The notes under the pieces: model-generated
The model's database searches: none
What the model was told of the DNA's origin: nothing
What the model saw: only the letters and a program-made list of their open reading frames with translations
Assembly: GCA_037576195.1 (NCBI GenBank)
Contig: CM075103.1
Coordinates: 35,477,250-35,541,249 of the forward strand
Source: Phytoseiulus persimilis
Taxonomy: Eukaryota > Arthropoda > Arachnida > Mesostigmata > Phytoseiidae
Length of the DNA stretch: 64,000 nt
Direction of reading: 5' to 3'
Shown: positions 16,123 to 64,000 of the stretch, piece by piece
How positions within the stretch are numbered: position 1 is the stretch's first letter
Layout of the letters: the number at the start of each line of letters is the position of its first letter
Translations under genes and position numbers: made by a program

Positions 16123-16313
16123 GTTCCAGGTAAGCCGTTTCTCGCAAACAAGAGCTCCCAGTGCGCATATTTGGGGAGCGCACTTTCGGGCGGCACAAAG
16201 CTGAGGGCCGTGGCACCGCGGTTGATTTTTTCCCATATGCGTGACCAGGAAATGAGCTCAATTCGTCTCCCGAACCAGTAAGCGCCCCAGAGAGGTGCAA
16301 ACTCGGAGTTCAA

Positions 16314-19300
16314 GGTTTGTCCATATCCATGGCTGCATTGGAGATTCAATTCTGTCTCGGACACGAAATCTCGACCAAGATGAGATGGGCGCGGAAGAGA
16401 TGAAGTTCTGAGAATCTCTTCGATTGCAAGGAAAATTCCCCCATCTCAGGCACAGGAACCTAGGGGGACGCCGACTCGGACTCGCACCTCCAGCTTCCGA
16501 GGGGGCGTGAATCTGAGGACAGACGAATCCGAAGTTCTGTCAATCTCCTGCAGCCGAAATTTAATCCGCATCGAGAGCAAAAGCGCGACCCAGAGAACTT
16601 AGGAGGCGCAGAATCGTAATTGCAGTTTGATGCATCGAAGAGGCTCTGTGATGAGGTGAATGACAAGAGATGAATGTAGAGTAAGTCATGATCATCACGA
16701 GTCAAGGAAGGCTGAGAACGTTAGCGCGTTTGAGCATTGAGAGAGATGAAACGGAAGATAACAGACTTTGAGGCTGTTCTAGAAATGCTTGCCGTAGTCG
16801 CGGCGAGTCGTGATAACATTGAGTCAGCATGTCCTTGTTCTCAACTCCTAGAAGCTCTTCCGATTCCCCACCATGTTCTCGAGCGGGTTCCAGGCGAGGG
16901 GGTCACATTTGTCGGTTTGCCCCGCCACTGACCAGGAGTCTATGGAAAGAGGATTGGGGATGCCATTCCTTCGTTCCTCCTCATGACTGTCAGCTTCTCA
17001 TCCTCGGCGAATCGGCTGGAACTCATACAAGATGTAGTGCACTCTCGAACTCTCAAGAGTTGCTCTGCGGGAATCGGGGACCCGATGGAGGGGGTAATAT
17101 CTCTCCTTTCCGACGAGAGCGAATGAAATGAATACGCTCAACGAATTCCCCAATTTATGCGCGTCTCGAACCACTCGGGATCGTCCTTGAAACAGAGCGA
17201 GCCATCGCACTGGCATTATTCGCTCACATGCAGTGCTATCCCGCAGCCCGAGCCTATAGCAGATGGGCCTCAGATAGTACCGGCTGTGCTTGAGGCATCT
17301 CTCGACTGTTTACATTGAGCGAAGCCTCGAAATTCTTCTTCCCCGGCGTCGAACTTTTCGATGACGTTGCTTCCTGCGGGCGAGCCGGGGTTCTCACTGA
17401 TACAGCGGAACCCCTTGATAGCTATCAATCTCCACGACATTAAGCATGGATAAATATACCGCAATCGTGTGGTTGGAAGTATGCAGCTGCAGTATCAGTC
17501 GTGAACTTTAAGAAACGTTCGGGCGGATCGAATAGTCGAACAGTTGGTCCTAGCATACCCATTGATGAGTTCTCTCGTTTTGAACAGACTTGGTAATTCT
17601 TGGATTCCTCCGCCAAGAACGCTTGTTTATCCCCGTAGATCGTTTCCAATGAGGAATCACATCAGACATCACGAAGCATGATCTAGCCGGAGCTCCTCCT
17701 TGTGTCCGCTGTGACTCTTGTAGCAGCGGAACTCGACCGGAGACCACGATCCGAAATCCGCAGGATTCCATCTCCTATTTTAAGAAGGCTCGGGAAAAGC
17801 TCCCAAAAACCAGAGGAGAATTTCGACAGGCGAGCGCTCAACCGTCGTCACTAGCGTCGGAATGCCCGAGTCAATTGCCCGAATTTTGATCGATGCGAGA
17901 CCTCGCTCCTCGTTGAGTCCCTAAATTTCGTGCATCGTGCCTCCTCAGGAGCGTTCTGTTGCCCACTATCGAGGGGCTCTAGATCGTTCGTTTCGTGGAT
18001 GATTATCCGCAGGCGAGTTGAATTCCTTCCTTATATTCGCTCGGCGTGCATGACGGCTCGATCAAGGCAGTCTGCATCAGCGCAACAAGGCGGGGTTCAT
18101 TTCGCTCAGCCTTGGCCTGTTCTGCGCCTGCTTTCCTGATGGGTCCGTTGTTTCTCTTGCAAGGCTCGAACGCTACAGTCTGAGCAACTTTCACTGTCGA
18201 GCCGATGACACCACTCATTTCGGCAATCACCCTCTTCTCTTTTTGTTTACGTTGTTTTTGATAGTTTCGATAATCGAGGAAACAAGTAATTCCGAAAACC
18301 TCTTCTTGAGGATCAGCGGTTCTGTCCCACGATGGGTCGATCTTCTTCATTTGGACCGTTTCTGCGGTGTACGTGCGGCAGATGGGTCTCGCGAGATGTT
18401 CCCCTTGGATAATTTTCGGTTCCCAATCGAAGAATGTGGGAATGGAACGAGTTCACACCATCTGACGCGAAACTACTCTCGGGTCGAACACTGGTGTTGA
18501 TAACTCACGTTTGATTACAAAGTGGATCAAGTGGAGGATTGGAAACTTGCTTGACAGCTTCGCCGTCGCTCCCGAAGCTTCAATTGAGCAGAAGCAAGTG
18601 TTATTTAGACGGCCGTTAGTCAAAACGGCGTCAAGGTCACACCTGTTGAGCTCAATGGCTTCTGAGTAGGTGGCTTCCTATCGAGATTCAGGCTTCTCGT
18701 CTCACAGGAACGCATGTCCCCCGATTACTGCGGCAAAAGATCTGGGTCGCTCAGTCAGTCAGCTTCCACAATAGTGAGCTTCAAGCTCAGAGAACCCGTG
18801 GACATGTGGAAATTTGGTCGATGGCGAAGATGCCACTGCTGATGATGATGCCAACAGCATCTGACGGCGGAGAGCAAGAAGACCTTGACTAGGAAAGAGA
18901 ATGAGCGAAATGTTGCTTGTCGCTTCTAGCTAGATGAGCAAACAGTGCTGGAGAGGAAGTGAGGCCGTTCCTGGTGCGGCGGCCTGAGCTAGTGTCCGCG
19001 ACGTTTACAATAATTGTGACAGAAACGAGGACGGAAGCAGGGGGCAGGCTTGGGGAAAACTCGTCGTCTCGGTATTGAAGTGCGCTCTGCTATGGTACGA
19101 CGTCCCGGATGCTTTGAAGTCAGGGAAGCTGGCTGACTGACTACCTGCATGCCGGCTCGCCGGTCAGCTTGAGTGACTGGCGGAGCCACGAGCAAGCAAA
19201 GAGCACATATCGGAAGCGAAGCGACAACTGTCAGCTGGGTCCGGGAATCATCGACTTGCCTCAGTCGCGACTTCATAGCGGCAGAGGTCGTTAGGCCGAT

Positions 19301-19990
19301 AGAGGTGAAATGCTAGCTTACTCTCACTCGGGGCCTTCCTCAGAAGGTGTACCTTCAAATACGAGGCAAAAATGCGTTCGAACCAACAAGCCCACCATCG
19401 GTCATGCGGGAAAACCTGTCTCTCAGAGACTCTCATCAATATTCTCGCCATCATCCGTGTCACATGCGCTCGCGGACACAATGAATTCGCCAAGTTGGTA
19501 AGCTCTGCATTGGCGAAGCGAATTCCAGAGCGCATGCGGACGAATTTTGTCCGTCCTGAGTTTGTGGGCAACGGAGGAGGGGACGGAGAATATCGGTTTT
19601 GTCTCCACAAGCGGAATTTGCAGCAGAGTTCGAGATCCAGCTTCCAGCTTAGAAATCAGACCTCGAACCGAGAGAAAGGAAACCGCCGCGTTCTTGGAAC
19701 AATCAGTTCTTGAATGCGAACCTGTTCTCGACTGCTATTCCTCTCTTTGAAATGAAGCTAGTATGTCGGAGCTCCTCGAACAATATCAGCTCGTTGCCGT
19801 GAGGGTAACATGAGATTCGGGACAATGAAGCATTTCATTGTGGAAAGCCAAACATCACAAAAGAGTCCCACGAGAATTCAACGAACGAGGAGGATACAAG
19901 GTGGAGAACACCCGTAATGCTTATGGTCTTTCTCCCAGAACCCGCGCGATTCAAGATTTGCCCTTGCCTGAAAGGACCGAGACTCAGGCC
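16314..19990. other. Upstream flank of gene A; one unassigned ORF
   Basis: There is no recognisable gene. A 115-codon frame on the minus strand (18,003-18,350) has a charged, protein-like middle, and an acceptor-like CACCGCAG lies just upstream of its ATG. It resembles nothing I know and is listed as the best of several weak candidates. A TCAGTCAGTCAGC tract sits near 18,755. The rest is presumably flank and promoter-distal sequence of gene A. Confidence 0.35.
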
Positions 19991-19993
19991 CGG

Positions 19994-20306
19994 TATATAA
20001 ACCTGTCCTCATGCACAATAGGCAGAGTGACCGTGGTTTCCCTGTGAGTGTTCATATAGGGCGTCTTATTTCGCTGCATTCGTTCGTCGACTCGTCGTTT
20101 AGCTAACTGGGACTGAAACATGATAACGGAACCGCTAAACGAAGAGCCGACTCATCTCGGAGGATTATCAGTGTTTTCCGTTGAGAGTGTTTGTGGAGTG
20201 CTGTTATCTGCTCAGCGAAGCGTGGATAAAAATGTTCCACCCTCAATTCGATGTCTGACATTTTAACATAGTAAACAAGAGTTTCTGTTGTTATCGCTCT
20301 TTGCAG
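19994..20306 (+). promoter_or_regulatory. TATA promoter, leader exon and intron 1 of Mhc-A
   Basis: TATATAAA occupies 19,994-20,001. Transcription should begin about 30 bp downstream, near 20,025. A donor GTGAGT at 20,044 would end a short non-coding leader exon. The acceptor TTTGCAG ends at 20,306, starting the exon that carries the ATG 60 nt later. A TATA box plus a small untranslated first exon is also the arrangement of gene B. Start and splice choices are inferred from motifs, not from transcripts. Confidence 0.75.
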
Positions 20307-20366
20307 AAGGACCACGAGACTCCTTCTTATCGCATTCAGTCGAGCTGAACCTTCGGGTTACTCAGG

Positions 20367-23300
20367 ATGGCGACCCAAGATCCTGATCCGAGCGAATTTC
20401 TCTTCATCTCCGCGGAGATGAAGAGAAAAGACGCTACGAAACCATACGATGGTAAAAAGATGACTTGGGTGCCTGATGATAAGGAGGGCTTCGTCCTTGG
20501 GAACATTGAATCCACGCAGGGCGACAAAGTCGTCGTCGAAACACCGGACGGCAAGAAGACCTTCAAGAAAGACCAGCTCCAGCAAGTCAACCCGCCGAAG
20601 TACGAAAAGTGCGAAGATATGTCCAACATGACCTATCTTAACGATGCTTCCGTACTCCACAATCTTAAGGAGCGTTACTACGCGAACCTTATTTACGTAA
20701 GTCGAGCTCCCAACCATTTTACGGTTTTTGCGTTGAGCGGACCGACTCCGAGAAAGTCACCTCGGGATCGTTGCTTTCAGACCTATTCCGGACTTTTCTG
20801 TGTGGCCATCAATCCTTACAAGAGGTTCCCGATCTACACTCCTCGTGCCGTCATGATCTACAAGGGCAAGAGGAGAACCGAAGTGCCTCCTCACGTTTTC
20901 GCTATTTCTGACGGCGCTTACATGCACATGTTGACTGGTGAGTTTCCAAATAGCTGCCCGGGAACAAGTCCCGACTCGAATGCATTTGTTTCCGAGTGGC
21001 CTGATTTCACGTCTGGAAATGCTTGATAGAAGGTAGAGTCTTGTTCAACAACGACTCGCCCTATAGGGGCCCAACGAATGAAAAGGGCGACCCGGGTCGA
21101 AACGACCTTTAAGATGAATTGCTATCAGGACTCTCGTGCTCATACAACGCTTCCCTCTGGAGGGCCTTCAGAAATGCCTCACCATCTCAGATAAATTCGC
21201 GTCTTTCCAGATAACGAGGATCAATCGATGCTTATCACGTGAGTAGTTTCATTTTTCTATTCCGCCCACCATTAAAATCGAGGTTGGAAGAACGAATAGA
21301 ATGAAGAACGAAGAATGACCTGCTCACCACTCGCAGCGGTGAGTCCGGAGCCGGAAAGACTGAAAACACCAAGAAAGTAATCTCGTACTTCGCCAACGTC
21401 GGTAAGAGCGACCGCAAGCTGACCGCAGCGGACGCCAACAAGCCCTCACTCGAGGATCAAATCGTGCAAACCAATCCCGTACTCGAGTCGTTCGGTAACG
21501 CCAAGACAACCCGTAACGACAACTCTTCCCGATTCGGTAAATTCATCCGTATCCACTTCGGTCCCACTGGAAAGCTGGCTGGTTGCGACATCGAGACTTA
21601 CCTGCTCGAAAAAGCTCGTGTCATCTCGCAACAGCCTCTCGAACGCTCGTACCACATCTTTTACCAACTGATGTCCGGGAAGATTCCCGACATGAAGAAG
21701 AAACTGTTGCTGAGCGACAACATCAAAGATTACCACTACGTGTCCCAAGGCAAAACTGAGATTCCCGGAGTCGACGACGGCGAAGAAATGGGATACACCG
21801 ACGAAGCCTTCGACATCCTTGGATTCGATGCTGAGGAGAAAGACGGTGTCTACCGCATCACCGCCGCCGTCATGCACTTCGGTACCCTGAAATTCAAGCA
21901 GAGACCTCGTGAGGAGCAGGCCGAAGCCGATGGCACCGACGAGGGAGAGAGAGTTGCTAAGCTGCTGGGTGTTGAAACTGCCGATCTTTACAAGAACTTG
22001 ACCAAGCCCAGGATCAAGGTCGGAACCGAGTTTGTGACGAAGGGCCAGAGCCAGGCTCAGTGCTATTCGGCCATCGGCGCCATGTCGAAAGCAATGTTCG
22101 ATCGTCTGTTCAAGTTCCTCGTCAAGAAGTGTAACGACACTCTGGACACGAAGCAAGCCCGCAAGAAGTTCATCGGTGTGCTCGATATCGCCGGATTCGA
22201 GATTTTCGACTACAACGGGTTCGAGCAGCTTTGCATCAATTTCACCAACGAGAAGTTGCAACAATTCTTCAACCACCACATGTTCGTGCTGGAGCAGGAA
22301 GAGTACAAGAGGGAGGGCATCGACTGGGTTTTCATCGACTTCGGTCTCGATCTGCAGGCCTGCATCGAGCTCATCGAGAAACCCATGGGAATCATGTCGA
22401 TCCTCGAAGAGGAATCCATGTTCCCGAAAGCAACTGACAAGACCTTCGAGGATAAGTTGAACAACACTCATCTCGGCAAGTCGGCTCCATTCCAGAAACC
22501 CAAGCCCCCCAAGAGCAAGGAGATTGGCCCAGCCCACTTCGCCATCGCCCATTATGCCGGCACAGTGTCATATTCCATCACCGGTTGGCTCGAGAAGAAC
22601 AAAGATCCGTTGAATGACTGCGTCGTTGATCAGTTCAAGAAGGGCAATCTCAAATTGCTCCAGACCATCTTCGAAGATCACCCCGGACTTGGCGGTGACG
22701 CCAAGGCCGAGGGCGGCGGCAAGGGTGGTGGCCGTAAGAAGGGTTCTGGTTTCCAGACTGTGTCCGGTCTGTACAGGGTAAGTTGTCGTCCTGTCATGGG
22801 AGAACATGACTCTCGACGAAATATGGGGCGATGGACAGGTTCTCTAATTGCGGACTCATTCCGCCGAAACAGGAACAGCTCAACAAGCTGATGCACACCC
22901 TCCACTCGACACATCCCCACTTCGTTCGTTGTATCATCCCCAACGAAATGAAGAAGCCGCGCGTAATCGATGCCCATCTCGTGATGCATCAACTAACCTG
23001 CAACGGTGTGCTCGAAGGTATTCGTATCTGCCGGAAGGGTTTCCCTAACAGGATGGTGTACGCCGATTTCCGTCAACGGTGAGTGCCCGTCGAGCGGCCG
23101 GATGTGAACAGATTTGAATCATTCACTTGAACTGAGCCAAAATCGAATCCCAGCTACACTATTCTCGCGCCGGACGCTGTCCCCAAGGACTTTGCCGGCG
23201 AGCCCCGAGAGGCCGGATCGCTGCTCATCGGCAGCTCAGGTCTAGACAAGGACGAATACCGTATCGGATTGACCAAGGTACGCTTTCTCATAAACAATCG

Positions 23301-26300
23301 CTCCTTACTCCAGTTACACAATCCTCGCGGCCGAAGAAGCCAAGAAACATGCAGAGCCGAAGGATGCCTCCGTTGCAGTGATTTCTAATATCAACCTTGA
23401 CAAGGATGAATATCGATATGGCGTCACAAAGGTAGAACGCCGGGCGAACTGGCTTCTGCGTTATTCGTTTCTGTGTTCTCTCGAGAATCGGGAGTTTGGC
23501 GCTGCTTCTGCATAACCACTCACAGTACGATTGCCAATCAATCGATACACTGTTCGAGTGTCGGAGGGCGCGTCTCGATGCTTTCTGCTCGTTTCGTTGA
23601 TTGTTTCATGAAGAACATATATCCATGTTCGTAACCGGAGGGCAGATCGCCTTTCGTCACGAGTTGAATGTCAAAACTGCGGCAGGCTTGACATCGGGTC
23701 GAGTCGGCAATGTTCCGTGTCGACGGCTGGTGGTCGTCACGAATAAGGAGCTGTGTTTCCCACCCGTAGGTGTTCTTCCGTGCCGGTGTCTTGGGTCGTC
23801 TCGAAGAAATGCGTGACGAGCGCCTTGCCAAGATCATGACCATGATCCAGTCCGCTTGCCGTTGGTATCTCTGCAAGAAACATTTCGAGAAGCTCAAGGA
23901 ACAGCGGTACGGATGTTTCATTTGAAAGATCTCGAATTCAGTGACGCTTCCGAGAGAACTCGATCCCGAATTTAATCCCCCCAACCTTCATCCACAGCGT
24001 TGCCCTGAAAGTTCTTCAGAGAAATCTCCGCCAGTTCGCTCAGATGCGCAACTGGGCGTGGTGGAAGCTGTTCATCAAGGTGAAACCCCTCCTCAACATG
24101 ACCAAAGCAGAAGACGAGTTGAAGGCTCTGGAGGACAAGCTGAAAGAAGAGCAAGAGAAATTCGCCAAGGAGGAGAAGCTCCGCAAGGAGCTTGAAGATC
24201 AGAACACAAAGCTGCTCCAAGAGAAGAACGATCTCTACATGCAGCTCGAGACGACCAAGGGTGGTGCCGGCGAAATCGAGCAGCAGCTCAGTAAAATCAG
24301 CTCCCAGAAGAAGGAGCTGGAGAGGCAAATCAAGGACATGGAGGATCGTCTCTCTCAAGAAGAAGGAACGGCGCAAAAGTTGAATCAGAACAAGAAGAAG
24401 CTCGAGGGTGAAGTCAGCGCACACAAGAAAGAAATCGAAGAGCTCGGCATGAACTTACAGAAAGCCGAACAGGACAAACAAACGAAGGACCACCAAATCC
24501 GCTCGCTGAACGATGAGATCAAGCGTCAGGAAGAGATGGTTGCGAAGCTCAACAAGGAGAAGAAAGCTCTGCAAGAAACGGGAGGAAAGACCTCCGAGGA
24601 TCTCGCCGCAGCGGAGGACAAAGTGAATCATCTCAACAAGGTGAAAACTAAACTCGAGCAGACCGTTGACGAGCTCGAGGATTCCCTCGAACGCGAGAAG
24701 AAGAGTCGCGCTGACCTCGAGAAGGCCAAGAGGAAAGTTGAAGGCGATCTGAAGCTCGCCCAAGAGGCCATCGGGGATCTCGAGAGAGCCAAGAAGGACC
24801 TCGAAGCCGCCGTCCAACGGAAGGACAAGGAGATGGCTGCCATCCAGACCAAGCTCGAGGAGGAGCAGTCACTCGTCGCCAAGCTCCAGAAGCAGATCAA
24901 AGAACTGCAACAACGAGTCACCGACCTCGAGGACGAGCTCGAAGCAGAGCGACAGGCCCGTCAACGGGCGGAACGTGCGCGTCAGGAGCTCTCACGCGAG
25001 ATCGAACAGCTGTCCGAGCGTCTTGAAGAGTCCGGCGGAGCGACATCCGCTCAAGTCGAGATGAACAAGCGCCGAGAAGCTGAGATGGCCAAGATGCGTC
25101 AAGAACTCGATGAGTCCAAGAGCCAAAGCGAGCAGATGATGAACGCCCTCCGAGCGAAGAACAACCAGGTCGTCCAAGAGATGACTGAAGCCATTGACAA
25201 CCTGACCAAGGCCAAATCAAAGTGAGCCACGAGCAGTCCGCGATGAGTCAAAGCTTTTCCTCGAGATAGTCGGTAACAATCCAACTCAAAACCATCCGAA
25301 TTCCAGGGCCGAAAAGGATGCCATGAGCTTCAAGGGTCAGGTCAACGATCTGCAGAGCAGCCTCGATCACGTCTCTCACCAGCAGGTCCGTTGAAATTAG
25401 CACTATGAACGACAGTTTTTGCTCAGACTCTGAAGGAAGCCCCTGCTCGCCGCCGACCGGCTGTTTTTAGGTCCCAATTGAATCACAAACAAAAAGTGCG
25501 ACAAGTAAACGTTTCTCGGAATGCTGCTCACAGAGCTCAGCTCACCAGAGGGCTCCCTGAACTTCCGTCAGGTCACAATATGCGGCAACGCACACTCGCT
25601 GAAATGCGTACAATCTGTCGTCTCCAGCTTTTGGGGACTGTCAAATCAAACCATGCAACGATTCGAGGTTACCTAGATTATTTTGTCTTATTTGGCGAAA
25701 ACTCCAGACGCATGATCCTCGCCGCTCATTCCAAAACATCCACACGCACCATGTTTACACTTCATCGCTGAAACGACTGCTGCGTTTTCTGAGAAAAACT
25801 GTGCTTTTCAGTCGAACTCTGAGCGTCAAGCGAAAATGCTCGAGCAACAAGTTCACGACCTTCAGTTCCGTCTCGACGAAGCCAATCGCAGCCTGAATGA
25901 TTTCGACTCGCAGAAGAAGAAGTTGAACATCGAGAACTCCGAGCTCCAGCGTCAACTCGAGGAGGCAGAGAGCCAAATCAACGCTCTGAACAAGCAGAAG
26001 GTCACTCTCGCCAACCAGGCCGAAGAAGCCAAACGTTCTGCCGATGAAGAGGCGAAGGAACGGAATACGATCATGGGTAAATACCGCAACGTGGAACGAG
26101 ATCTCCAAGTTCTCCGCGATGCCGTCGATGAAGCAGAAGAAGCGAAGGCCGACCTTCAGCGCCAGCTGTCCAAAGCCAGTGCTGACGCGCAGCTATGGCG
26201 CGGGAAATACGAGTCTGAAGGACTTCTGCGTCTCGAGGAGCTCGAGGAGGGCAAGAGGAAACTTCAGGCCAAGTTGACCCACGCCGAGGAGACCATCGAG

Positions 26301-28007
26301 TCGCTGAACTCGAAAGTCGCCAATTTGGAGAAATCCAAGAGTCATCTGCAGGGAGAGGTCGACGACATGCAAGCCGAGGTCGACCGCGCTCAGCAACTCG
26401 CCCAGCAGCTCGACAAGAAACAGAAGTCGTTCGACCGCGTCATCGCCGAGTGGAAGACCAAAACCGATGGCTTGGCGTCTGAACTCGAGGAGTCCAAGCG
26501 GGAAGCTAGGAACTTCTCCACAGAGGTGTTCAAGCTCAGAGCGCAAGCCGACGAGGCGAACGAGCACTGCGAGTCCTTGAAAAAGGAGAACAAGAACCTC
26601 CAGGACGAACTGAAGGAGGTCATTGATCAACTGGGCGAAGGGGGCCGATCTTCCCATGAAGTCGAGAAGAACCGAAAGCGGCTCGAAATCGAGAAAGAAG
26701 AACTCCAACACGCTCTTGAGGAGGCTGAAGCCGCCCTCGAACAGGAAGAGAACAAAGTTCTGCGTGCTCAGCTCGAGCTCAGTCAAGTACGCCAAGAAAT
26801 CGAGCGCCGAATCCACGAGAAGGAAGAGGAGTTCGAGAACACTCGCAAGAACCATCAGCGAGCGATCGACTCCATCCAGGCTTCTCTCGAGGCCGAGTCC
26901 AAAGCCAAGGCCGAAGCTCAGCGTGTGAAGAAGAAGCTCGAGTCCGATATCAACGAGCTCGAAATCGCTCTGGACGGCGCGAACCGCTCCAAGGTAGAAG
27001 CTGAAAAGAACGCTAAGAAATATCAGCAGCAGATTCGTGAGATTCAGAATCAGCTCGAGGACGAGCAGAAAGCACATAGTGACACTCGCGACAAGTACGT
27101 CGATGCGGAGCGCAGAGCCAATCAGCTGCACGGAACCGTGGAGGAGGCTAAAACACTGGTTGAAAACGCTGACCGCGCCCGTCGGGCTGCAGAAAATGAA
27201 CTCTACGAACTCAAGGAGGCCTGCGGTGACCTCAGCGGGAACGCATCTTCTCTGCTGATCGCGAAGAAGAAACTTGAGGGAGAGATGGGAGCTCTTCAGG
27301 TTCGTGCGCGGCGCGTTGTAATGCATTTCGTACTTGAGCGGTTCATAAGTTGTCGCTGGTAGGTTCCGCTTTCAACACACACACACACACACACACGCAC
27401 TGATCTCTGAATGTGATTCTCGTTGCAGAACGACCTCGATGAAATGATCAACGAGTGCAAAGCCTCCGAGGAGCGGGCCAAGAAGGCCATGGTTGACGCC
27501 GCGAGACTCGCCGATGAGCTTCGAGCGCACGCTGAAGTTGCGGCCAACGCCGAAAAATCCAAGAGGACTATGGAAGCTCAGATGAAAGAAATGCAGGCTC
27601 GTCTCGAAGAGGCGGAGAAAGACTCCATCAAGGGCGGTAAGAAGTACATCACCAAGCTCGAAGGCAAATGCAAAGATCTCGAGCATGAGCTCGAAAACGA
27701 AATCCGCAAGGGAGCTGAGCATGCCAGGAGCTCGAAGAAAGCAGAGCGGAAAATCAAGGAACTGCAATTCCAAGCTGAGGAGGAGAAAAAGAACTTCGAC
27801 CGCATGCACGAACTCGTGGACCAGCTGCAGAATAAACTGGCCACGTACAGGAAGCAGTTGGAGGACTCCGAAGAGATAGCTTCGATGAACCTCACCAAAT
27901 TCAAGAAGGCTCAACAGGAGCTCGAAGATGCTGACGAGAAAGTGCGCAGCGCCGAACAACAGGTCCAAAAACTGCGCGCCAAGATTCGTACCGGAACTCC
28001 AGTGTGA
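20367..28007 (+). CDS. Mhc: Muscle myosin heavy chain, paralogue A (complete)
   Basis: This is the motor and rod of sarcomeric thick filaments, hydrolysing ATP to pull on actin. Exons: 20367-20696, 20781-20937, 21211-21238, 21337-22777, 22873-23078, then 23154-23277 or 23314-23431, 23770-23906, 23998-25221, 25307-25385, 25812-27299, 27429-28007. The total is 5,793 nt, or 1,930 residues (1,928 with the other converter exon), the normal length for muscle Mhc. An SH3-like domain lies near residues 30-80. The P-loop GESGAGKT is at about 173-180, with an intron just before it. Switch [11 protein letters not shown] is near 232, switch II DIAGFE near 455, a Gly/Lys-rich loop 2 near 625-645, and the SH-helix [13 protein letters not shown] near 695. 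The converter (about 722-762) is followed by two IQ motifs for the light chains, then a heptad coiled coil to the end. The rod ends RTGTPV. All splice sites are GT-AG and in phase. I see no canonical AATAAA just downstream. Confidence 0.97.
21211..21238 (+). other. 28-nt microexon of Mhc-A
   Basis: Only 28 nt (encoding the [10 protein letters not shown] part just before the P-loop) lie between acceptor TTTCCAG and donor GTGAGT. The preceding intron (20,938-21,210) has no counterpart in gene B, where 33,255-33,439 covers both pieces as one 185-nt exon (157 + 28). The exon is required for frame and for the ATP-binding site. Confidence 0.92.
23154..23431 (+). other. Mutually exclusive converter exons, Mhc-A
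   Basis: Exon 1 is 23154-23277 (124 nt, [13 protein letters not shown]...) and exon 2 is 23314-23431 (118 nt, [12 protein letters not shown]...). Both complete the arginine codon begun by the previous exon, both end in phase 0 before the shared VFFRAGV exon, and both end DKDEYR-G-TK. They correspond to the alternative converter exon (exon 11 series) of Drosophila Mhc, which tunes contraction speed and power. Only 36 nt (23278-23313) separate them, too short for a functional intron. Including both, or neither, would also break the frame (each is 1 mod 3). Confidence 0.93.
27375..27396. repeat. (AC)11 microsatellite in the last intron of Mhc-A
   Basis: An uninterrupted AC dinucleotide run lies in the intron between 27,300 and 27,428. 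It is copied in the right arm at about 52,917-52,938. Confidence 0.95.
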
Positions 28008-31000
28008 ATGACTGGGATTCGTGACAACAGCGCATGAAATGGGACAGCTGGTCCGGAGTGGCGGATGACCATCTTGCCGAAGACATATACAATCCATCCA
28101 TTATATCCATATTAATCTCAATCGATAAGGCGGGATAACAAAAACAATATGAAAACTCGCGCCACAGAAACTTGCTAACTGCGGAAGGAAAACGTGGAAA
28201 TGTACTGCTACGCAACACATTACTAAAACATGTCGTTCATCGTCAACATTTGCTACGCAGTGCCTCTTCATTGAAGTCTCTCCCCAGTGTGATGTGGTAT
28301 ACGTAGAGGATGAGCGGAGCCTCCTCGTTACCCAACGGATTCACTGCCGTTGGGGTAGACGCTCAGATATTCAGATGGCGGCATCGCGAGATATGAGTCG
28401 GGTTCTGCTTATCCTCCTTTGCCTTCGTCGACTGTCAAGTGCGCTCGATCCAACCCATCTGATTCATGAAGCCGAATATAGACTTCCCGAACGAGATGAC
28501 CTTCTCAATGTCCCGGCCCATGTCCATAGATCAGATAACAAAATACGTGGAGAACAGAGTTCTGGTTCTTTGTTTTGGTGATGCATATTGAGCTGACACG
28601 ACAGGACGCGCAAACAGTCTACAGCTAATCACTGAGAACAAGCACGGAATCGGTCCTCGGAAGGAGGAATTCCAGGAATGCTGTCGCTTCAAGATTTGGA
28701 GGAACTTATAGAACGATGCCGTGACGTGGAGAGTATGATGACTGGCTGCCAGTCAAACCAAGCGGCCGATAGACCGACTGGTGCGCCGACAGAGAGTCAG
28801 TCACTCAGCCTGGCCGTCAGTCGGCCAAGCAGTGCCGCGAGTGCGCACAACAAACTAGGAAGAAGGTTGTAAGAGACCTTTAACGAAAGAGCTCACGTTT
28901 AGAGACCTGTAGCAAGCGCAGCAGGTCTCCTCTCTCTATAAGGGAATGCTATCTCTGCGGCGGCGGCGGCGGCGACTGGTGAGGCCGTGTTCAGCGCACC
29001 GACAGAGCGAGCGGCAGCCACCGTTGAGCTTTGGTAGAGAACGGGTACATGCCAGAATCAGTTCCGACATTCATCAGGGGGGAATGGTGTAGTTCGTTGG
29101 AAGGGACAAGATTCGATCCTCTCTCTCTCTCTCTCATCTCGAATCTTGGCTACGGCGAACCGGTGCAGCTACATCCAGCACTAGCGAAATGGAACGTGCG
29201 CGGGAACACAAGCTCTTGTTTCGGTTCAATGCACGACAGAAAAAGCTTCGCAAGAATATCTATGCCCTATTGTTGTTGCCTGGTCGCAGTTCGATCACAT
29301 TTCACAGCGTCTCCTTCAATCCTTTGAGATACCATTCCATCTTCGAAAAAGCCAACGTCGATTGAGACCACGGTTCCAAGCAATGGGTCTGGTTCGAGAG
29401 AACGATTGCTCCGAGGCGCATGCAGCTCAAGAACAGGTTGCGGCGGTGAGACTCTACAACGAGACGAGACCCAACAAAGTATTTCTTCCTCTCGCAGGTC
29501 AGGGGGAAAGGTGCTGTTCCAAGACGTAGCGCTACCTGCGACAGGAACGGTCATGCTTTCTCCTTTCTCTTGCCAAGGTGGGACGCCCAGGAAGCGCTGA
29601 GCTCTCCATCGGGCCTTCTGTCGCGCACTCTGTCTGGATGTAGAAATGGTTCACTTGTTGGAAATATCCTCCCACAGCCGAATGCCATCGGCTGACACGA
29701 GGGTCGCTGGTCTTTCCTCGCTTACGCGTCGACATCCCGCCTCTGCCCGGCTAGTTGGATGGCTTTGGCCGTCTTGCTGCAGGTACCCACCTCTCGACCA
29801 AAAGCCACAATGCTTCAGACCAGTTTGATATTAGAGTGGTGCCAAGAATAGATTAGCGACCCGTCTCTGTCCGCTCTGCACGGCGCTTCGTGAGCTCGTT
29901 CACTCTGCTCGCGATCACCAGACTCGGAAGACCCGACGACCGATTCGTCATTTGTTTTCGCCCCTAGCGCAACGAGAAAAATATTGGGAGGAAAGGAAAA
30001 GTTCTGAACGAATTTACAATCGTTTAGATTTTTATCGAGCTCTTATGTTCACAAGTCGTTTGAAACATGGTCTCGTGGGAGTTGAAGGCGTCGGTCCTTG
30101 GTGGAAGATTCACGATGGGCGGAACTTTTCCAACGAGAAGCGATCGATTAGCGAGACGAAATGAGCGGGGGACTCGTGTCAATCACACATCCATCACTCA
30201 ATCAACTTGGGTCAATTGAACTCTCGCTCGGATCTGTCCCGATTCAATACAATATGCTGGCCCGGACATTATCTCAACTGGAAGATTGCCCCTCATCACA
30301 GAGTTGCATCACGAATTATCCGCCGGCGTATGGATGAAAGCATCAGCTACATCGAAGCTTCTTCGAGAGAGAAAAAACTTATCGTAGTAATTCGATGCTG
30401 CGTTGCTCCCGGTGTTGGGAGGATCATTCATTCCATCTTTCAAAACTTCAATAGCTCTGATACCTGCCCGAACGGAACCTCCCAATGCTACCAACCTCGA
30501 TTAGGAGAACAATTGACTCGGGACACGAATGACGGGGACGGATCCTCGAAGACGGGCTCTTGACAGCGGAATTCAATATTGAATGATGGTTCGCGAAATC
30601 ACGTGTTCGGGCTGCATCTCGTTTGATGCAGACATTCCCTCGAGTAAACAGGTGCGCTCCGAAAAGCCGAATGGTCCCCAACGAAATCGCCCCAATCTTC
30701 GCAACTGGAACCAGCACTCGAAAAATTGGGGACGAGTCCGCATCCTCATCGAAGATCACGCTCCATGGAATAAGAAGCGTCGTGGCCCGTTCAGGAATTC
30801 ATGAACTAACGTCAACACCCCGAGCTAGACTTTGTAGTCGCTATGTTTCCTGGTATCTGACACATGAGTCGACTCTCTTGCGTCCGATGGACACTCTCCT
30901 TGGAAGCCTCCAAGATCGGAGGATCAGCGCTTTTCGCGCAAAGGAAACTCCCGGGCTCAACGTCGTGGAAATCATGGCGTTCGAGACACATGAGCTGGGA

Positions 31001-32407
31001 AGTCCTGATCTTCACAATTGAAGCTCAATAACTCGTGGATGTGCGAGCTTCTGATGGAGAGGAATCCCGGTGCTTTTATGGAGAGGGGAGAAGTTTCGTG
31101 CCCTATTCCCGAAGCTGAGCGGTTGCCCGGTCCGGCTGCCGCTTTCCGGGTTCCGAGGGCGTCTTTCGAGCCTTCGTCCCCTCTGGCACGCTCCATTCCC
31201 AAGGATTACGTGAGCAACCGCCGTTTGAATACACTCCGTGTGCATCGATTGCTCGATTCACCGTACCGCAGCAAGAAATATTGATCGGGGGCGAGAATAC
31301 GATACGTTTGAAAGTTTGTGTTATCGCAGCTCAGTAACGAGAGCGAAGCAGGTGCAAGGTGGATGTCTGAAACAGGAAATCGTTTTCCCTCTCCCCATCT
31401 TTCCTTCGACGACGGCATTTTCCTCTGATTGATGAGACAGGTTTCAGCATTCGGCGAAGTTCGCTTCGGTAAAAGATGATCTCCAGTGAGCTAGATAAGA
31501 AACGCCTCGAGTAAGAAACTCTGCGGATGAGGCCTCCGACGACTCTTGGGTCCGACCAACCTCATTGCGAGCGGTCGGGAACACTTCGGCAGCATGAAGA
31601 CATCCAGCGAATCATTATGAGACGATCGATCGACTCTCAGGCTGTTGAACTTCTGCCGACAGGGAGTCCATCAGGCTCGCAGATCGGCGAGAGGGAGCTG
31701 ATCCGTCTTTCTCCCCGCTGCTCGAGATGGTTCGCGATTTCCATGCATGACAGCCTGAACGATGAGCCGCTGCTCTAGTCACACGGGACACGGTCGATTC
31801 CTTCGAGTGAAGACGGAGATTCACCGAGGTCAAGTGTGGAGGCATGAGGCGTCTGAATAAACCAGTCGAACAATTGAGAACCAACACAGCATCCATACCG
31901 AACCGACCCAGGAAGCTTACTCCGGGGTTATCGGGGTCCCTGCACGGCGATCAAGCCATTGAACGCAACGTCTTTATATCATGAGGTTTCTGCACGGGAA
32001 CATGGATGGCATTTTAATTGTAGCCCACGGCAGAGGGGTTTGAGGATGAGCAGGGGACGCCTCGACAGGGAGCAAACCAGATTTGTGAGCTCTGAGCATC
32101 CCGATGGAAACTCTTGTGAAGTGCCAAACAATGTGAAAGGTGTCAATACGCCTCAGAACTGACTCACGCGGACGACGCTGGCCGCCTACAACAGGCCGCG
32201 GGCCGGGCAGCAGTCCCCCGCCGCCCGCTTCGAAGATTCTTTAAGCAGACGGGGCCTTCCACCCGCACTACGCCCGCACCACAGGAAGCCCGAGCTGGCG
32301 AGATGCATCATATCTTCGGGACCTGCCACGCCGACGCACCAAAACTTAAAGAACCGTCATCAGAACCTTTCCACTTTCACTTTTCCGGACGGAGGGATCG
32401 TAGCAGG
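28008..32407. other. A-B intergenic region, 4.4 kb
   Basis: It holds the 3' flank of gene A and the 5' flank of gene B. No family-matching exon is seen. A 96-codon plus-strand frame (28,294-28,581) contains an internal ATG followed by a hydrophobic, signal-peptide-like run (RVLLILLCLRRLSSA). It could encode a small secreted peptide but is unsupported otherwise. Simple repeats are (CGG)n at about 28,957-28,974 and (CT)n at about 29,119-29,134. The hairpin GACTGG-CTG-CCAGTC lies near 28,739. Confidence 0.45.
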
Positions 32408-32747
32408 TATATAAAGGAGAAAAACCATGATTCCGCCTTAGAGTGCTTGGCTTGGCAGCGTAAGTGCGTGTTTGTTCCTTGCGTCATCTAGGAAATTATC
32501 CTTATTTGGTAAAGAGGAGTTTCCCATGTATGTCCAGGACAGTGTCAATTATTCCCGCACTCCACGAGGTGACCAGTGGTCACTGACCACTTCATCGGCT
32601 CGTGGCCCGGCAGTCAGAGCCGAAGAACGTCTTTCGAGGACACTGTGCCGGATCTCGCATCGAATTAACTAGCGAGCGCCCCGGTGGTTTGGGAAGTGCT
32701 CTCGTCTTATGCGGTTGCGTCAACTGAGGTTCGATTGCTCGTTGCAG
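32408..32747 (+). promoter_or_regulatory. TATA promoter, leader exon and intron 1 of Mhc-B
   Basis: TATATAAA is at 32,408-32,415. A short leader exon would start near 32,438 and end before the donor GTAAGT at 32,460. The acceptor TTGCAG ends at 32,747, and the coding ATG follows at 32,831. Inside intron 1, CCTTATTTGG (32,500-32,509) fits the CArG box bound by SRF/MADS-family factors of muscle genes. I did not find such a box in the equivalent part of gene A. Confidence 0.72.
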
Positions 32748-32830
32748 GCGGGCCACTGGCTCTCAGATAAGTTTCCATAGAAGCAAAAGTTCCAGCATTC
32801 TGAGTGAAGACAGAGAACGGAGAGAGCAAA

Positions 32831-52304: not shown

Positions 52305-55300
52305 TCACACTGGAGTTCCGGTACGAATCTTGGCGCGCAGTTTTTGGACCTGTTGTTCGGCGCTGCGCACTTTCTCGTCAGCATCTTCGAGCTCCTGTTG
52401 AGCCTTCTTGAATTTGGTGAGGTTCATCGAAGCTATCTCTTCGGAGTCCTCCAACTGCTTCCTGTACGTGGCCAGTTTATTCTGCAGCTGGTCCACGAGT
52501 TCGTGCATGCGGTCGAAGTTCTTTTTCTCCTCCTCAGCTTGGAATTGCAGTTCCTTGATTTTCCGCTCTGCTTTCTTCGAGCTCCTGGCATGCTCAGCTC
52601 CCTTGCGGATTTCGTTTTCGCAGCTCATGCTCGAGATCTTTGCATTTGCCTTCGAGCTTGGTGATGTACTTCTTACCGCCCTTGATGGAGTCTTTCTCCG
52701 CCTCTTCGAGACGAGCCTGCATTTCTTTCATCTGAGCTTCCATAGTCCTCTTGGATTTTTCGGCGTTGGCCGCAACTTCAGCGTGCGCTCGAAGCTCATC
52801 GGCGAGTCTCGCGGCGTCAACCATGGCCTTCTTGGCCCGCTCCTCGGAGGCTTTGCACTCGTTGATCATTTCATCGAGGTCGTTCTGCAACGAGAATCAC
52901 ATTCAGAGATCAGTGCGTGTGTGTGTGTGTGTGTGTGTTGAAAGCGGAACCTACCAGCGACAACTTATGAACCGCTCAAGTACGAAATGCATTACAACGC
53001 GCCGCGCACGAACCTGAAGAGCTCCCATCTCTCCCTCAAGTTTCTTCTTCGCGATCAGCAGAGAAGATGCGTTCCCGCTGAGGTCACCGCAGGCCTCCTT
53101 GAGTTCGTAGAGTTCATTTTCTGCAGCCCGACGGGCGCGGTCAGCGTTTTCAACCAGTGTTTTAGCCTCCTCCACGGTTCCGTGCAGCTGATTGGCTCTG
53201 CGCTCCGCATCGACGTACTTGTCGCGAGTGTCACTATGTGCTTTCTGCTCGTCCTCGAGCTGATTCTGAATCTCACGAATCTGCTGCTGATATTTCTTAG
53301 CGTTCTTTTCAGCTTCTACCTTGGAGCGGTTCGCGCCGTCCAGAGCGATTTCGAGCTCGTTGATATCGGACTCGAGCTTCTTCTTCACACGCTGAGCTTC
53401 GGCCTTGGCTTTGGACTCGGCCTCGAGAGAAGCCTGGATGGAGTCGATCGCTCGCTGATGGTTCTTGCGAGTGTTCTCGAACTCCTCTTCCTTCTCGTGG
53501 ATTCGGCGCTCGATTTCTTGGCGTACTTGACTGAGCTCGAGCTGAGCACGCAGAACTTTGTTCTCTTCCTGTTCGAGGGCGGCTTCAGCCTCCTCAAGAG
53601 CGTGTTGGAGTTCTTCTTTCTCGATTTCGAGCCGCTTTCGGTTCTTCTCGACTTCATGGGAAGATCGGCCCCCTTCGCCCAGTTGATCAATGACCTCCTT
53701 CAGTTCGTCCTGGAGGTTCTTGTTCTCCTTTTTCAAGGACTCGCAGTGCTCGTTCGCCTCGTCGGCTTGCGCTCTGAGCTTGAACACCTCTGTGGAGAAG
53801 TTCCTAGCTTCCCGCTTGGACTCCTCGAGTTCAGACGCCAAGCCATCGGTTTTGGTCTTCCACTCGGCGATGACGCGGTCGAACGACTTCTGTTTCTTGT
53901 CGAGCTGCTGGGCGAGTTGCTGAGCGCGGTCGACCTCGGCTTGCATGTCGTCGACCTCTCCCTGCAGATGACTCTTGGATTTCTCCAAATTGGCGACTTT
54001 CGAGTTCAGCGACTCGATGGTCTCCTCGGCGTGGGTCAACTTGGCCTGAAGTTTCCTCTTGCCCTCCTCGAGCTCCTCGAGACGCAGAAGTCCTTCAGAC
54101 TCGTATTTCCCGCGCCATAGCTGCGCGTCAGCACTGGCTTTGGACAGCTGGCGCTGAAGGTCGGCCTTCGCTTCTTCTGCTTCATCGACGGCATCGCGGA
54201 GAACTTGGAGATCTCGTTCCACGTTGCGGTATTTACCCATGATCGTATTCCGTTCCTTCGCCTCTTCATCGGCAGAACGTTTGGCTTCTTCGGCCTGGTT
54301 GGCGAGAGTGACCTTCTGCTTGTTCAGAGCGTTGATTTGGCTCTCTGCCTCCTCGAGTTGACGCTGGAGCTCGGAGTTCTCGATGTTCAACTTCTTCTTC
54401 TGCGAGTCGAAATCATTCAGGCTGCGATTGGCTTCGTCGAGACGGAACTGAAGGTCGTGAACTTGTTGCTCGAGCATTTTCGCTTGACGCTCAGAGTTCG
54501 ACTGAAAAGCACAGTTTTTCTCAGAAAACGCAGCAGTCGTTTCAGCGATGAAGTGTAAACATGGTGCGTGTGGATGTTTTGGAATGAGCGGCGAGGATCA
54601 TGCGTCTGGAGTTTTCGCCAAATAAGACAAAATAATCTAGGTAACCTCGAATCGTTGCATGGTTTGATTTGACAGTCCCCAAAAGCTGGAGACGACAGAT
54701 TGTACGCATTTCAGCGAGTGTGCGTTGCCGCATATTGTGACCTGACGGAAGTTCAGGGAGCCCTCTGGTGAGCTGAGCTCTGTGAGCAGCATTCCGAGAA
54801 ACGTTTACTTGTCGCACTTTTTGTTTGTGATTCAATTGGGACCTAAAAACAGCCGGTCGGCGGCGAGCAGGGGCTTCCTTCAGAGTCTGAGCAAAAACTG
54901 TCGTTCATAGTGCTAATTTCAACGGACCTGCTGGTGAGAGACGTGATCGAGGCTGCTCTGCAGATCGTTGACCTGACCCTTGAAGCTCATGGCATCCTTT
55001 TCGGCCCTGGAATTCGGATGGTTTTGAGTTGGATTGTTACCGACTATCTCGAGGAAAAGCTTTGACTCATCGCGGACTGCTCGTGGCTCACTTTGATTTG
55101 GCCTTGGTCAGGTTGTCAATGGCTTCAGTCATCTCTTGGACGACCTGGTTGTTCTTCGCTCGGAGGGCGTTCATCATCTGCTCGCTTTGGCTCTTGGACT
55201 CATCGAGTTCTTGACGCATCTTGGCCATCTCAGCTTCTCGGCGCTTGTTCATCTCGACTTGAGCGGATGTCGCTCCGCCGGACTCTTCAAGACGCTCGGA

Positions 55301-58300
55301 CAGCTGTTCGATCTCGCGTGAGAGCTCCTGACGCGCACGTTCCGCCCGTTGACGGGCCTGTCGCTCTGCTTCGAGCTCGTCCTCGAGGTCGGTGACTCGT
55401 TGTTGCAGTTCTTTGATCTGCTTCTGGAGCTTGGCGACGAGTGACTGCTCCTCCTCGAGCTTGGTCTGGATGGCAGCCATCTCCTTGTCCTTCCGTTGGA
55501 CGGCGGCTTCGAGGTCCTTCTTGGCTCTCTCGAGATCCCCGATGGCCTCTTGGGCGAGCTTCAGATCGCCTTCAACTTTCCTCTTGGCCTTCTCGAGGTC
55601 AGCGCGACTCTTCTTCTCGCGTTCGAGGGAATCCTCGAGCTCGTCAACGGTCTGCTCGAGTTTAGTTTTCACCTTGTTGAGATGATTCACTTTGTCCTCC
55701 GCTGCGGCGAGATCCTCGGAGGTCTTTCCTCCCGTTTCTTGCAGAGCTTTCTTCTCCTTGTTGAGCTTCGCAACCATCTCTTCCTGACGCTTGATCTCAT
55801 CGTTCAGCGAGCGGATTTGGTGGTCCTTCGTTTGTTTGTCCTGTTCGGCTTTCTGTAAGTTCATGCCGAGCTCTTCGATTTCTTTCTTGTGTGCGCTGAC
55901 TTCACCCTCGAGCTTCTTCTTGTTCTGATTCAACTTTTGCGCCGTTCCTTCTTCTTGAGAGAGACGATCCTCCATGTCCTTGATTTGCCTCTCCAGCTCC
56001 TTCTTCTGGGAGCTGATTTTACTGAGCTGCTGCTCGATTTCGCCGGCACCACCCTTGGTCGTCTCGAGCTGCATGTAGAGATCGTTCTTCTCTTGGAGCA
56101 GCTTTGTGTTCTGATCTTCAAGCTCCTTGCGGAGCTTCTCCTCCTTGGCGAATTTCTCTTGCTCTTCTTTCAGCTTGTCCTCCAGAGCCTTCAACTCGTC
56201 TTCTGCTTTGGTCATGTTGAGGAGGGGTTTCACCTTGATGAACAGCTTCCACCACGCCCAGTTGCGCATCTGAGCGAACTGGCGGAGATTTCTCTGAAGA
56301 ACTTTCAGGGCAACGCTGTGGATGAAGGTTGGGGGGATTAAATTCGGGATCGAGTTCTCTCGGAAGCGTCACTGAATTCGAGATCTTTCAAATGAAACAT
56401 CCGTACCGCTGTTCCTTGAGCTTCTCGAAATGTTTCTTGCAGAGATACCAACGGCAAGCGGACTGGATCATGGTCATGATCTTGGCAAGGCGCTCGTCAC
56501 GCATTTCTTCGAGACGACCCAAGACACCGGCACGGAAGAACACCTACGGGTGGGAAACACAGCTCCTTATTCGTGACGACCACCAGCCGTCGACACGGAA
56601 CATTGCCGACTCGACCCGATGTCAAGCCTGCCGCAGTTTTGACATTCAACTCGTGACGAAAGGCGATCTGCCCTCCGGTTACGAACATGGATATATGTTC
56701 TTCATGAAACAATCAACGAAACGAGCAGAAAGCATCGAGACGCGCCCTCCGACACTCGAACAGTGTATCGATTGATTGGCAATCGTACTGTGAGTGGTTA
56801 TGCAGAAGCAGCGCCAAACTCCCGATTCTCGAGAGAACACAGAAACGAATAACGCAGAAGCCAGTTCGCCCGGCGTTCTACCTTTGTGACGCCATATCGA
56901 TATTCATCCTTGTCAAGGTTGATATTAGAAATCACTGCAACGGAGGCATCCTTCGGCTCTGCATGTTTCTTGGCTTCTTCGGCCGCGAGGATTGTGTAAC
57001 TGGAGTAAGGAGCGATTGTTTATGAGAAAGCGTACCTTGGTCAATCCGATACGGTATTCGTCCTTGTCTAGACCTGAGCTGCCGATGAGCAGCGATCCGG
57101 CCTCTCGGGGCTCGCCGGCAAAGTCCTTGGGGACAGCGTCCGGCGCGAGAATAGTGTAGCTGGGATTCGATTTTGGCTCAGTTCAAGTGAATGATTCAAA
57201 TCTGTTCACATCCGGCCGCTCGACGGGCACTCACCGTTGACGGAAATCGGCGTACACCATCCTGTTAGGGAAACCCTTCCGGCAGATACGAATACCTTCG
57301 AGCACACCGTTGCAGGTTAGTTGATGCATCACGAGATGGGCATCGATTACGCGCGGCTTCTTCATTTCGTTGGGGATGATACAACGAACGAAGTGGGGAT
57401 GTGTCGAGTGGAGGGTGTGCATCAGCTTGTTGAGCTGTTCCTGTTTCGGCGGAATGAGTCCGCAATTAGAGAACCTGTCCATCGCCCCATATTTCGTCGA
57501 GAGTCATGTTCTCCCATGACAGGACGACAACTTACCCTGTACAGACCGGACACAGTCTGGAAACCAGAACCCTTCTTACGGCCACCACCCTTGCCGCCGC
57601 CCTCGGCCTTGGCGTCACCGCCAAGTCCGGGGTGATCTTCGAAGATGGTCTGGAGCAATTTGAGATTGCCCTTCTTGAACTGATCAACGACGCAGTCATT
57701 CAACGGATCTTTGTTCTTCTCGAGCCAACCGGTGATGGAATATGACACTGTGCCGGCATAATGGGCGATGGCGAAGTGGGCTGGGCCAATCTCCTTGCTC
57801 TTGGGGGGCTTGGGTTTCTGGAATGGAGCCGACTTGCCGAGATGAGTGTTGTTCAACTTATCCTCGAAGGTCTTGTCAGTTGCTTTCGGGAACATGGATT
57901 CCTCTTCGAGGATCGACATGATTCCCATGGGTTTCTCGATGAGCTCGATGCAGGCCTGCAGATCGAGACCGAAGTCGATGAAAACCCAGTCGATGCCCTC
58001 CCTCTTGTACTCTTCCTGCTCCAGCACGAACATGTGGTGGTTGAAGAATTGTTGCAACTTCTCGTTGGTGAAATTGATGCAAAGCTGCTCGAACCCGTTG
58101 TAGTCGAAAATCTCGAATCCGGCGATATCGAGCACACCGATGAACTTCTTGCGGGCTTGCTTCGTGTCCAGAGTGTCGTTACACTTCTTGACGAGGAACT
58201 TGAACAGACGATCGAACATTGCTTTCGACATGGCGCCGATGGCCGAATAGCACTGAGCCTGGCTCTGGCCCTTCGTCACAAACTCGGTTCCGACCTTGAT

Positions 58301-59946
58301 CCTGGGCTTGGTCAAGTTCTTGTAAAGATCGGCAGTTTCAACACCCAGCAGCTTAGCAACTCTCTCTCCCTCGTCGGTGCCATCGGCTTCGGCCTGCTCC
58401 TCACGAGGTCTCTGCTTGAATTTCAGGGTACCGAAGTGCATGACGGCGGCGGTGATGCGGTAGACACCGTCTTTCTCCTCAGCATCGAATCCAAGGATGT
58501 CGAAGGCTTCGTCGGTGTATCCCATTTCTTCGCCGTCGTCGACTCCGGGAATCTCAGTTTTGCCTTGGGACACGTAGTGGTAATCTTTGATGTTGTCGCT
58601 CAGCAACAGTTTCTTCTTCATGTCGGGAATCTTCCCGGACATCAGTTGGTAAAAGATGTGGTACGAGCGTTCGAGAGGCTGTTGCGAGATGACACGAGCT
58701 TTTTCGAGCAGGTAAGTCTCGATGTCGCAACCAGCCAGCTTTCCAGTGGGACCGAAGTGGATACGGATGAATTTACCGAATCGGGAAGAGTTGTCGTTAC
58801 GGGTTGTCTTGGCGTTACCGAACGACTCGAGTACGGGATTGGTTTGCACGATTTGATCCTCGAGTGAGGGCTTGTTGGCGTCCGCTGCGGTCAGCTTGCG
58901 GTCGCTCTTACCGACGTTGGCGAAGTACGAGATTACTTTCTTGGTGTTTTCAGTCTTTCCGGCTCCGGACTCACCGCTGCGAGTGGTGAGCAGGTCATTC
59001 TTCGTTCTTCATTCTATTCGTTCTTCCAACCTCGATTTTAATGGTGGGCGGAATAGAAAAATGAAACTACTCACGTGATAAGCATCGATTGATCCTCGTT
59101 ATCTGGAAAGACGCGAATTTATCTGAGATGGTGAGGCATTTCTGAAGGCCCTCCAGAGGGAAGCGTTGTATGAGCACGAGAGTCCTGATAGCAATTCATC
59201 TTAAAGGTCGTTTCGACCCGGGTCGCCCTTTTCATTCGTTGGGCCCCTATAGGGCGAGTCGTTGTTGAACAAGACTCTACCTTCTATCAAGCATTTCCAG
59301 ACGTGAAATCAGGCCACTCGGAAACAAATGCATTCGAGTCGGGACTTGTTCCCGGGCAGCTATTTGGAAACTCACCAGTCAACATGTGCATGTAAGCGCC
59401 GTCAGAAATAGCGAAAACGTGAGGAGGCACTTCGGTTCTCCTCTTGCCCTTGTAGATCATGACGGCACGAGGAGTGTAGATCGGGAACCTCTTGTAAGGA
59501 TTGATGGCCACACAGAAAAGTCCGGAATAGGTCTGAAAGCAACGATCCCGAGGTGACTTTCTCGGAGTCGGTCCGCTCAACGCAAAAACCGTAAAATGGT
59601 TGGGAGCTCGACTTACGTAAATAAGGTTCGCGTAGTAACGCTCCTTAAGATTGTGGAGTACGGAAGCATCGTTAAGATAGGTCATGTTGGACATATCTTC
59701 GCACTTTTCGTACTTCGGCGGGTTGACTTGCTGGAGCTGGTCTTTCTTGAAGGTCTTCTTGCCGTCCGGTGTTTCGACGACGACTTTGTCGCCCTGCGTG
59801 GATTCAATGTTCCCAAGGACGAAGCCCTCCTTATCATCAGGCACCCAAGTCATCTTTTTACCATCGTATGGTTTCGTAGCGTCTTTTCTCTTCATCTCCG
59901 CGGAGATGAAGAGAAATTCGCTCGGATCAGGATCTTGGGTCGCCAT
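52305..59946 (-). CDS. Mhc: Mhc-A, inverted copy
   Basis: This is a reverse-complement copy of gene A. Exons (5' to 3'): 59946-59617, 59532-59376, 59102-59075, 58976-57536, 57440-57235, then 57159-57036 or 56999-56882, 56543-56407, 56315-55092, 55006-54928, 54501-53014, 52884-52305. All exons but the last have the same lengths and reading as the left copy. The last exon has one extra base at 52,621 (CTGCG for CTCG in coding sense), which shifts the final roughly 100 codons. The ATG is at 59,946-59,944. The copy adds no new information on gene A. Confidence 0.88.
56882..57159 (-). other. Converter exons of Mhc-A, inverted copy
   Basis: Exon 1 is 57159-57036 and exon 2 is 56999-56882, with the same 36-nt gap as in the left copy and no visible difference. 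Confidence 0.9.
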
Positions 59947-63300: not shown

Positions 63301-64000
63301 ATTCGCCGAGGATGAGAAGCTGACAGTCATGAGGAGGAACGAAGGAATGGCATCCCCAATCCTCTTTCCATAGACTCCTGGTCAGTGGCGGGGCAAACCG
63401 ACAAATGTGACCCCCTCGCCTGGAACCCGCTCGAGAACATGGTGGGGAATCGGAAGAGCTTCTAGGAGTTGAGAACAAGGACATGCTGACTCAATGTTAT
63501 CACGACTCGCCGCGACTACGGCAAGCATTTCTAGAACAGCCTCAAAGTCTGTTATCTTCCGTTTCATCTCTCTCAATGCTCAAACGCGCTAACGTTCTCA
63601 GCCTTCCTTGACTCGTGATGATCATGACTTACTCTACATTCATCTCTTGTCATTCACCTCATCACAGAGCCTCTTCGATGCATCAAACTGCAATTACGAT
63701 TCTGCGCCTCCTAAGTTCTCTGGGTCGCGCTTTTGCTCTCGATGCGGATTAAATTTCGGCTGCAGGAGATTGACAGAACTTCGGATTCGTCTGTCCTCAG
63801 ATTCACGCCCCCTCGGAAGCTGGAGGTGCGAGTCCGAGTCGGCGTCCCCCTAGGTTCCTGTGCCTGAGATGGGGGAATTTTCCTTGCAATCGAAGAGATT
63901 CTCAGAACTTCATCTCTTCCGCGCCCATCTCATCTTGGTCGAGATTTCGTGTCCGAGACAGAATTGAATCTCCAATGCAGCCATGGATATGGACAAACCT
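60320..64000. other. Upstream flank of Mhc-A, inverted copy
   Basis: This is the mirror of 16,313-19,993 with no visible difference. It includes the 115-codon unassigned frame, now at 61,963-62,310 on the plus strand. No gene is recognised. Confidence 0.6.

Follow-up and report, generated by a model that had tools for sequence, protein, structure and literature searches.

A mirrored pair of muscle-myosin genes in the Phytoseiulus persimilis assembly, probably one locus entered twice

A stretch of 64,000 nucleotides from Phytoseiulus persimilis (GenBank assembly GCA_037576195.1, sequence CM075103.1, forward-strand positions 35,477,250 to 35,541,249; hereafter the window) contains a tandem pair of muscle-myosin genes (Mhc-A and Mhc-B) and then that pair again in mirror order. 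Does the animal carry a palindrome of myosin genes, or does the assembly hold one locus twice? An earlier note described an inverted duplication around a single N and suspected an artefact, either a duplicate contig joined head to head or a palindromic long read. Judged from its sequence, the duplication is very probably an assembly artefact of the first kind, in which a single locus would have been entered a second time as a duplicate contig. This reading draws on the pattern in its entirety and on precedents rather than on one decisive test.

Extent of the duplication and the break at its centre

The window belongs to a 38.9-megabase (Mb) scaffold of a genome assembly of 181 Mb in 127 pieces; its GC fraction is 0.517. 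Positions 41,747–64,000 are the reverse complement of 38,608–16,313 over 22,320 alignment columns (99.53%, with 15 mismatches and 90 gap bases), a match of such length that chance is not at issue. The N at 38,609 is the only one in the window. The mirrored arrangement drawn in the earlier note is confirmed, with some corrections. The arm as first described was cut by the window end. When flanks were fetched beyond the window (40 kilobases (kb) on the left and 80 kb on the right, giving 184 kb with the window itself), the match extended to 5,424–38,608 against 74,886–41,747. From 5,424 to about 6,158 the similarity lies inside a tandem array and is no higher than array-level, with 147 substitutions over 734 bases. 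Thus, the true arm runs from about 6,158 to 38,608 (32.45 kb). The arms were compared along one BLAST path, in which the placement of insertions and deletions (indels) within runs is arbitrary. Probes from 13,000–17,000, 20,000–20,400 and 29,000–31,500 each found two full-length places in the genome, both in the duplicated region; the sequence to the left of a run of 5,000 N found one place.

That run, at −4999 to 0, lies directly left of the window and presumably represents an assembly gap. It and the single N at 38,609 are the only runs of N across the 184 kb, and thus window positions 1–38,608 form the left copy in a single piece. This copy stops within an exon of Mhc-B, as had been reported; the exon belongs to the rod, and the copy is in frame up to the N. 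Both copies lie at contig boundaries, the left one ending at the N and the right one starting 3.1 kb past it. With the right contig turned round, the two contigs run in the same direction through Mhc-A and Mhc-B, and their ends lie ∼3 kb apart. The intervening spacer is present in full only once in the genome; its further matches are paralogous pieces at 68–80%. A search for a mirror of the spacer matched the left contig at the level of the paralogue (Mhc-A) only, and the spacer itself over 16 bases. No contig was found to read through a turning point from one arm into the other; the N stands at the join, and the sequence ends on either side of it do not mirror each other.

Differences between the copies and errors in the right contig

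The copies differ in three zones (Table 1). In the outer zone, the 28 substitutions in 6,838 bases comprise 19 transitions and 9 transversions and look like natural variation. A lone indel follows at 14,187, and from 14,188 to 27,691 there are zero differences. The outer arms, which looked identical in the earlier note, are therefore identical in this middle part but not between 6,158 and 12,995. The differences of the inner zone look like errors. Extra bases occur on the left at 63 places and on the right at 23, and all 15 substitutions belong to the A/C or G/T class, compared with 3 of the 28 outer ones (p 5e-9). Between 12,996 and 38,608 no substitution of the natural type was found. Among single-base sites where the left copy has the extra base, 13 of 15 at 27–31 kb lie in runs of two or more (0.42 of random positions do), as do 29 of 46 at 31–38.6 kb (random positions 0.45); these run-context counts leave out multi-base indels. 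On the right, 19 of 22 single extra bases equal a neighbouring base, a raw count for which no null was computed. Differences peak locally at 27,692–30,999, where either copy can have the extra bases, whereas mostly one-sided losses are seen further in.

Within coding stretches, the errors sit in the right contig. Stretches of Mhc-B were compared, with frameshifts allowed, to the Mhc-A protein read from the left arm; left Mhc-A has 0 frameshifts by construction, as the reference protein was read there. Left Mhc-B has 0 in the rod (525 codons) and 0 in the head (477 codons). The same two stretches of right Mhc-B have 9 and 7, and this contrast of 16 to 0 is the unequal consensus quality of one and the same sequence by which homotype false duplications are recognized. 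The right Mhc-A rod has a single frameshift, near 52,617, at the edge of the error zone. The spacer has 17, between 41,746 and 39,965 (an 18th in its alignment falls in the arm and is counted among the right rod's 9), or ∼10 per coding kb against ∼5 in the arm. The frame-breaking indels that had been ascribed to the inner right arm are thus present, but they fill the unduplicated spacer too. Because errors are also dense there, being duplicated cannot be their cause; they track the contig end rather than the duplication. The simplest cause would be a poorly supported end of the right contig. Ambiguous mapping of the correcting reads to two copies was considered as the main source of error and rejected: it would be expected to leave the spacer clean, yet frameshifts per coding kb are more numerous there than in the arm.

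Table 1. Features of the duplicated myosin locus, in window coordinates
Feature	Positions	Strand	Description	Basis
Left contig	1–38,608	.	Accurate copy where judged; 5,000 N on its left outside the window, single N on its right	N runs
Single N	38,609–38,609	.	Join of two contigs	Sequence
Right contig	38,610–64,000	.	Extends past the window; first 14 kb (38,610 to ∼52,621) error-rich	Frameshifts, indels
Left arm of the inverted duplication	6,158–38,608	+		Alignment with right arm
Right arm, part in the window	41,747–64,000	−	Carries on to about 74,155	Alignment with left arm
Spacer without left twin	38,610–41,746	−	Mhc-B 3′ end, 17 frameshifts, then contig end	
Outer zone	6,158–12,995	+	28 substitutions and 1 indel, natural in type, heterotype-like	
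Middle zone	14,188–27,690	+	Exact match of 13,503 bases between the copies	
Inner zone	27,692–38,608 (10.9 kb)	+	86 indels and 15 substitutions, error-like	
Mhc-A, left copy	20,367–28,004	+	In frame over the stretches read	Open frames; Pfam myosin head/tail matches
Mhc-A, right copy	52,308–59,946	−	One rod frameshift	
Mhc-B, left copy	32,831–38,608	+	Truncated in rod exon at contig end	Open frames; Pfam and PDB matches
Mhc-B, right copy	39,965–47,483	−	Frameshift-broken; sole copy of the Mhc-B 3′ end	
Foldback-like dispersed element	4,076–6,846	.	Inner tandem array; copies diverge inside at ∼6,158	

Competing accounts of the mirrored locus

We infer from this pattern that Mhc-A and Mhc-B exist at a single locus in the animal, which would have been assembled as two contigs. 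The left contig, accurate where judged, ends inside Mhc-B. The right contig, reversed, covers the same stretch plus 3.1 kb more, and its last 14 kb resemble an end with thin coverage and no correction. As the two ends would fall ∼3 kb apart at the same true genomic place, linking data could tie them together, and a scaffolder that does not merge overlaps may have set the contigs head to head with a one-base gap. Some scaffolders may use such a gap to mark overlapping contigs; the accessible text of PMC6733440 does not confirm this. A head-to-head join of overlapping contigs accounts for the arms being inverted, for so small a gap, for the truncation of left Mhc-B and for the missing centre. 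The outer divergence would most simply reflect two haplotypes with 0.4% substitutions between them and with different repeat insertions in a foldback-like element; alternatively, the left contig may be chimeric. The false duplication would then combine a heterotype part (the outer 6.8 kb) with a homotype part (the inner 25.6 kb).

False duplications of this sort have been described. The accessible text of Rhie et al. 2021 (PMC8081667) places homotype false duplications, of roughly read length, at contig boundaries and describes one case that combines heterotype and homotype. In the corresponding portion of Ko et al. 2022 (PMC9516828), a gap between the copies is a mark of false duplication, which arises readily where homozygous sites border on heterozygous ones. 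The main criteria of the two papers are read depth, half or lower in false copies, and linked reads, discordant there; an anomalous k-mer copy number is another. Here the N at 38,609 is such a gap between copies on one scaffold, and with the contig boundary, the unequal consensus quality and the presumed homozygous/heterozygous border it makes the pattern fit the false duplications set out in those parts of the two papers. The likeness extends to two copies on one scaffold that lie at contig ends, one part showing haplotype-like differences and the other near-identity at unequal quality. However, the second contig is inverted in our case, the outer flanks are not alleles, and the comparison was made by sequence rather than by depth. 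The lengths also differ: homotype cases in the cited text are about read length, whereas the inner part here measures 25.6 kb and its error-rich portion 10.9 kb (14 kb with the spacer).

Several observations weigh against a misjoined duplicate contig. The left flank (1–4,075) has no match at an expect value (E) of 1e-3 in 38,610–144,000, and its positions 300–3,000 have no second full copy in the genome, with just three short further matches. A plain haplotig should have allelic outer flanks, and the right flank has dispersed repeats instead. A real palindrome at which the assembly broke would also be expected to show a gap and error-rich contig ends. One-sided errors, put forward earlier as the main argument for an artefact, are accordingly weaker than claimed, since they fill the unique spacer and since a contig end could be poor at a real palindrome too. 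Finally, the non-coding stretch at 27.7–31 kb has extra bases on both copies (15 left, 19 right). Being non-coding, it offers no reading frames that could tell which copy is wrong, and the left copy may not be faultless.

The outer break falls inside the foldback-like element. Both copies share the first units of its array down to ∼6,158; further in, 120-base windows of the left array reach at most 92% over at least 100 bases in the right arrays. The right array is interrupted by a dispersed repeat with at least 72 matching pieces and followed by another with at least 55, which by eye looks like a retroelement. The element itself has at least 40 genome matches, often as inverted pairs, and is called foldback-like on the strength of six inverted pairs of its end, 1.3–2.1 kb edge to edge, picked by eye among the matches listed. 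Target-site copies around an intact insertion might have revealed the original neighbour but were unusable: on the left the element's outer end breaks off at 4,076, and the right flank, as far as it was fetched, yielded no second end. The right copy of the element occupies ∼73,412–82,059, beyond the window. In the left flank, 3,248–3,972 recurs inverted ∼38 kb leftward at 90.6%. Within the arm, 15,848–16,132 holds a short dispersed repeat of ∼255 bases with at least 38 further genome matches, which was also caught by the probe from 13,000–17,000.

The differing flanks leave three readings: haplotypes of different structure, chimerism of the left contig, and an inverted duplication that is real. 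The last is the most serious rival to the misjoin, though an unlikely one. A rearrangement at the foldback-like element would have doubled the Mhc pair in mirror order on arms of at least 32 kb, gene conversion would keep the arms alike, and the assembly would have broken at the centre. Natural palindromes with gene-converted arms, such as those of mammalian Y chromosomes, likewise have long, near-identical inverted arms and a short spacer. Differing outer flanks, the left one unmirrored, are what true duplication borders look like. The border falls in a dispersed foldback-like element, and such elements are a usual place for rearrangement. The confinement of natural-type divergence to the outer zone would be compatible with gene conversion as well. 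Nonetheless, unlike those natural palindromes, the locus has no sequenced centre, an N separates the copies at the join, and the differences at the contig end are of the error type. Because left Mhc-B is without its 3′ end, this rival also requires a missing third copy of the spacer sequence. Moreover, the right contig end is error-rich, though a doubled stretch should have ample reads. The three tandem Mhc genes of a predatory mite are also given without mirror order in the available text of PMC3912159.

A plain haplotig does not suffice as a full account. Two contigs with different outer neighbours speak against it, and the expected allele of the left flank was not found in 38,610–144,000, nor a second full copy of 300–3,000 in the genome; we retain it as a partial explanation only. 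Least credible by far is a fold-back long read as the source of the second arm, the other artefact earlier proposed: it would produce an inverted arrangement, but the lack of a sequenced axis argues against it, the join being an N without read-through whose flanking ends are unmirrored, 3.1 kb separate the end of the left copy from the start of the right one, and 28 natural-type substitutions and different outer flanks are not expected of one molecule read twice.

Myosin genes of the locus

Head and tail pieces of both Mhc-A and Mhc-B match Pfam myosin families, and the Mhc-B head matches solved muscle myosins, best among them 3jbh, which we take to be from tarantula. The two genes form an old tandem pair (20,367–38,608) whose head exons are 83.9% alike in DNA. 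A genome search with the Mhc-B head exon returned left Mhc-B whole, right Mhc-B in three pieces (two with stops) and Mhc-A twice. The same search found a third muscle-like Mhc on another large scaffold (C2:48.33 Mb; three pieces, 68–82%) and other myosins elsewhere at 37–46%.

Tandem myosin genes have a precedent. The predatory mite Metaseiulus occidentalis has three muscle Mhc genes in tandem and one elsewhere, four in all, according to the available part of PMC3912159; an Mhc pair in tandem would thus not be unusual in such an animal. The likeness, as far as that text goes, is in having more than one muscle Mhc gene and in having them in tandem. The numbers differ: the present assembly has two tandem genes, both of them in duplicate, plus a muscle-like gene on another large scaffold. 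The predatory-mite genome of PMC6902594 is, by its accessible text, a short-read draft in 1,173 scaffolds.

At face value, the locus has four muscle Mhc genes, of which one is truncated and another frameshifted; the true number is likely two. No whole, in-frame Mhc-B is present anywhere in this assembly. The mirrored pair is likely not a real feature, and the locus offers assembly curation a clear small example rather than new biology. The seemingly additional myosin genes are therefore best left uncounted. False gains of this kind distort gene counts, orthology and studies of the myosin gene family.
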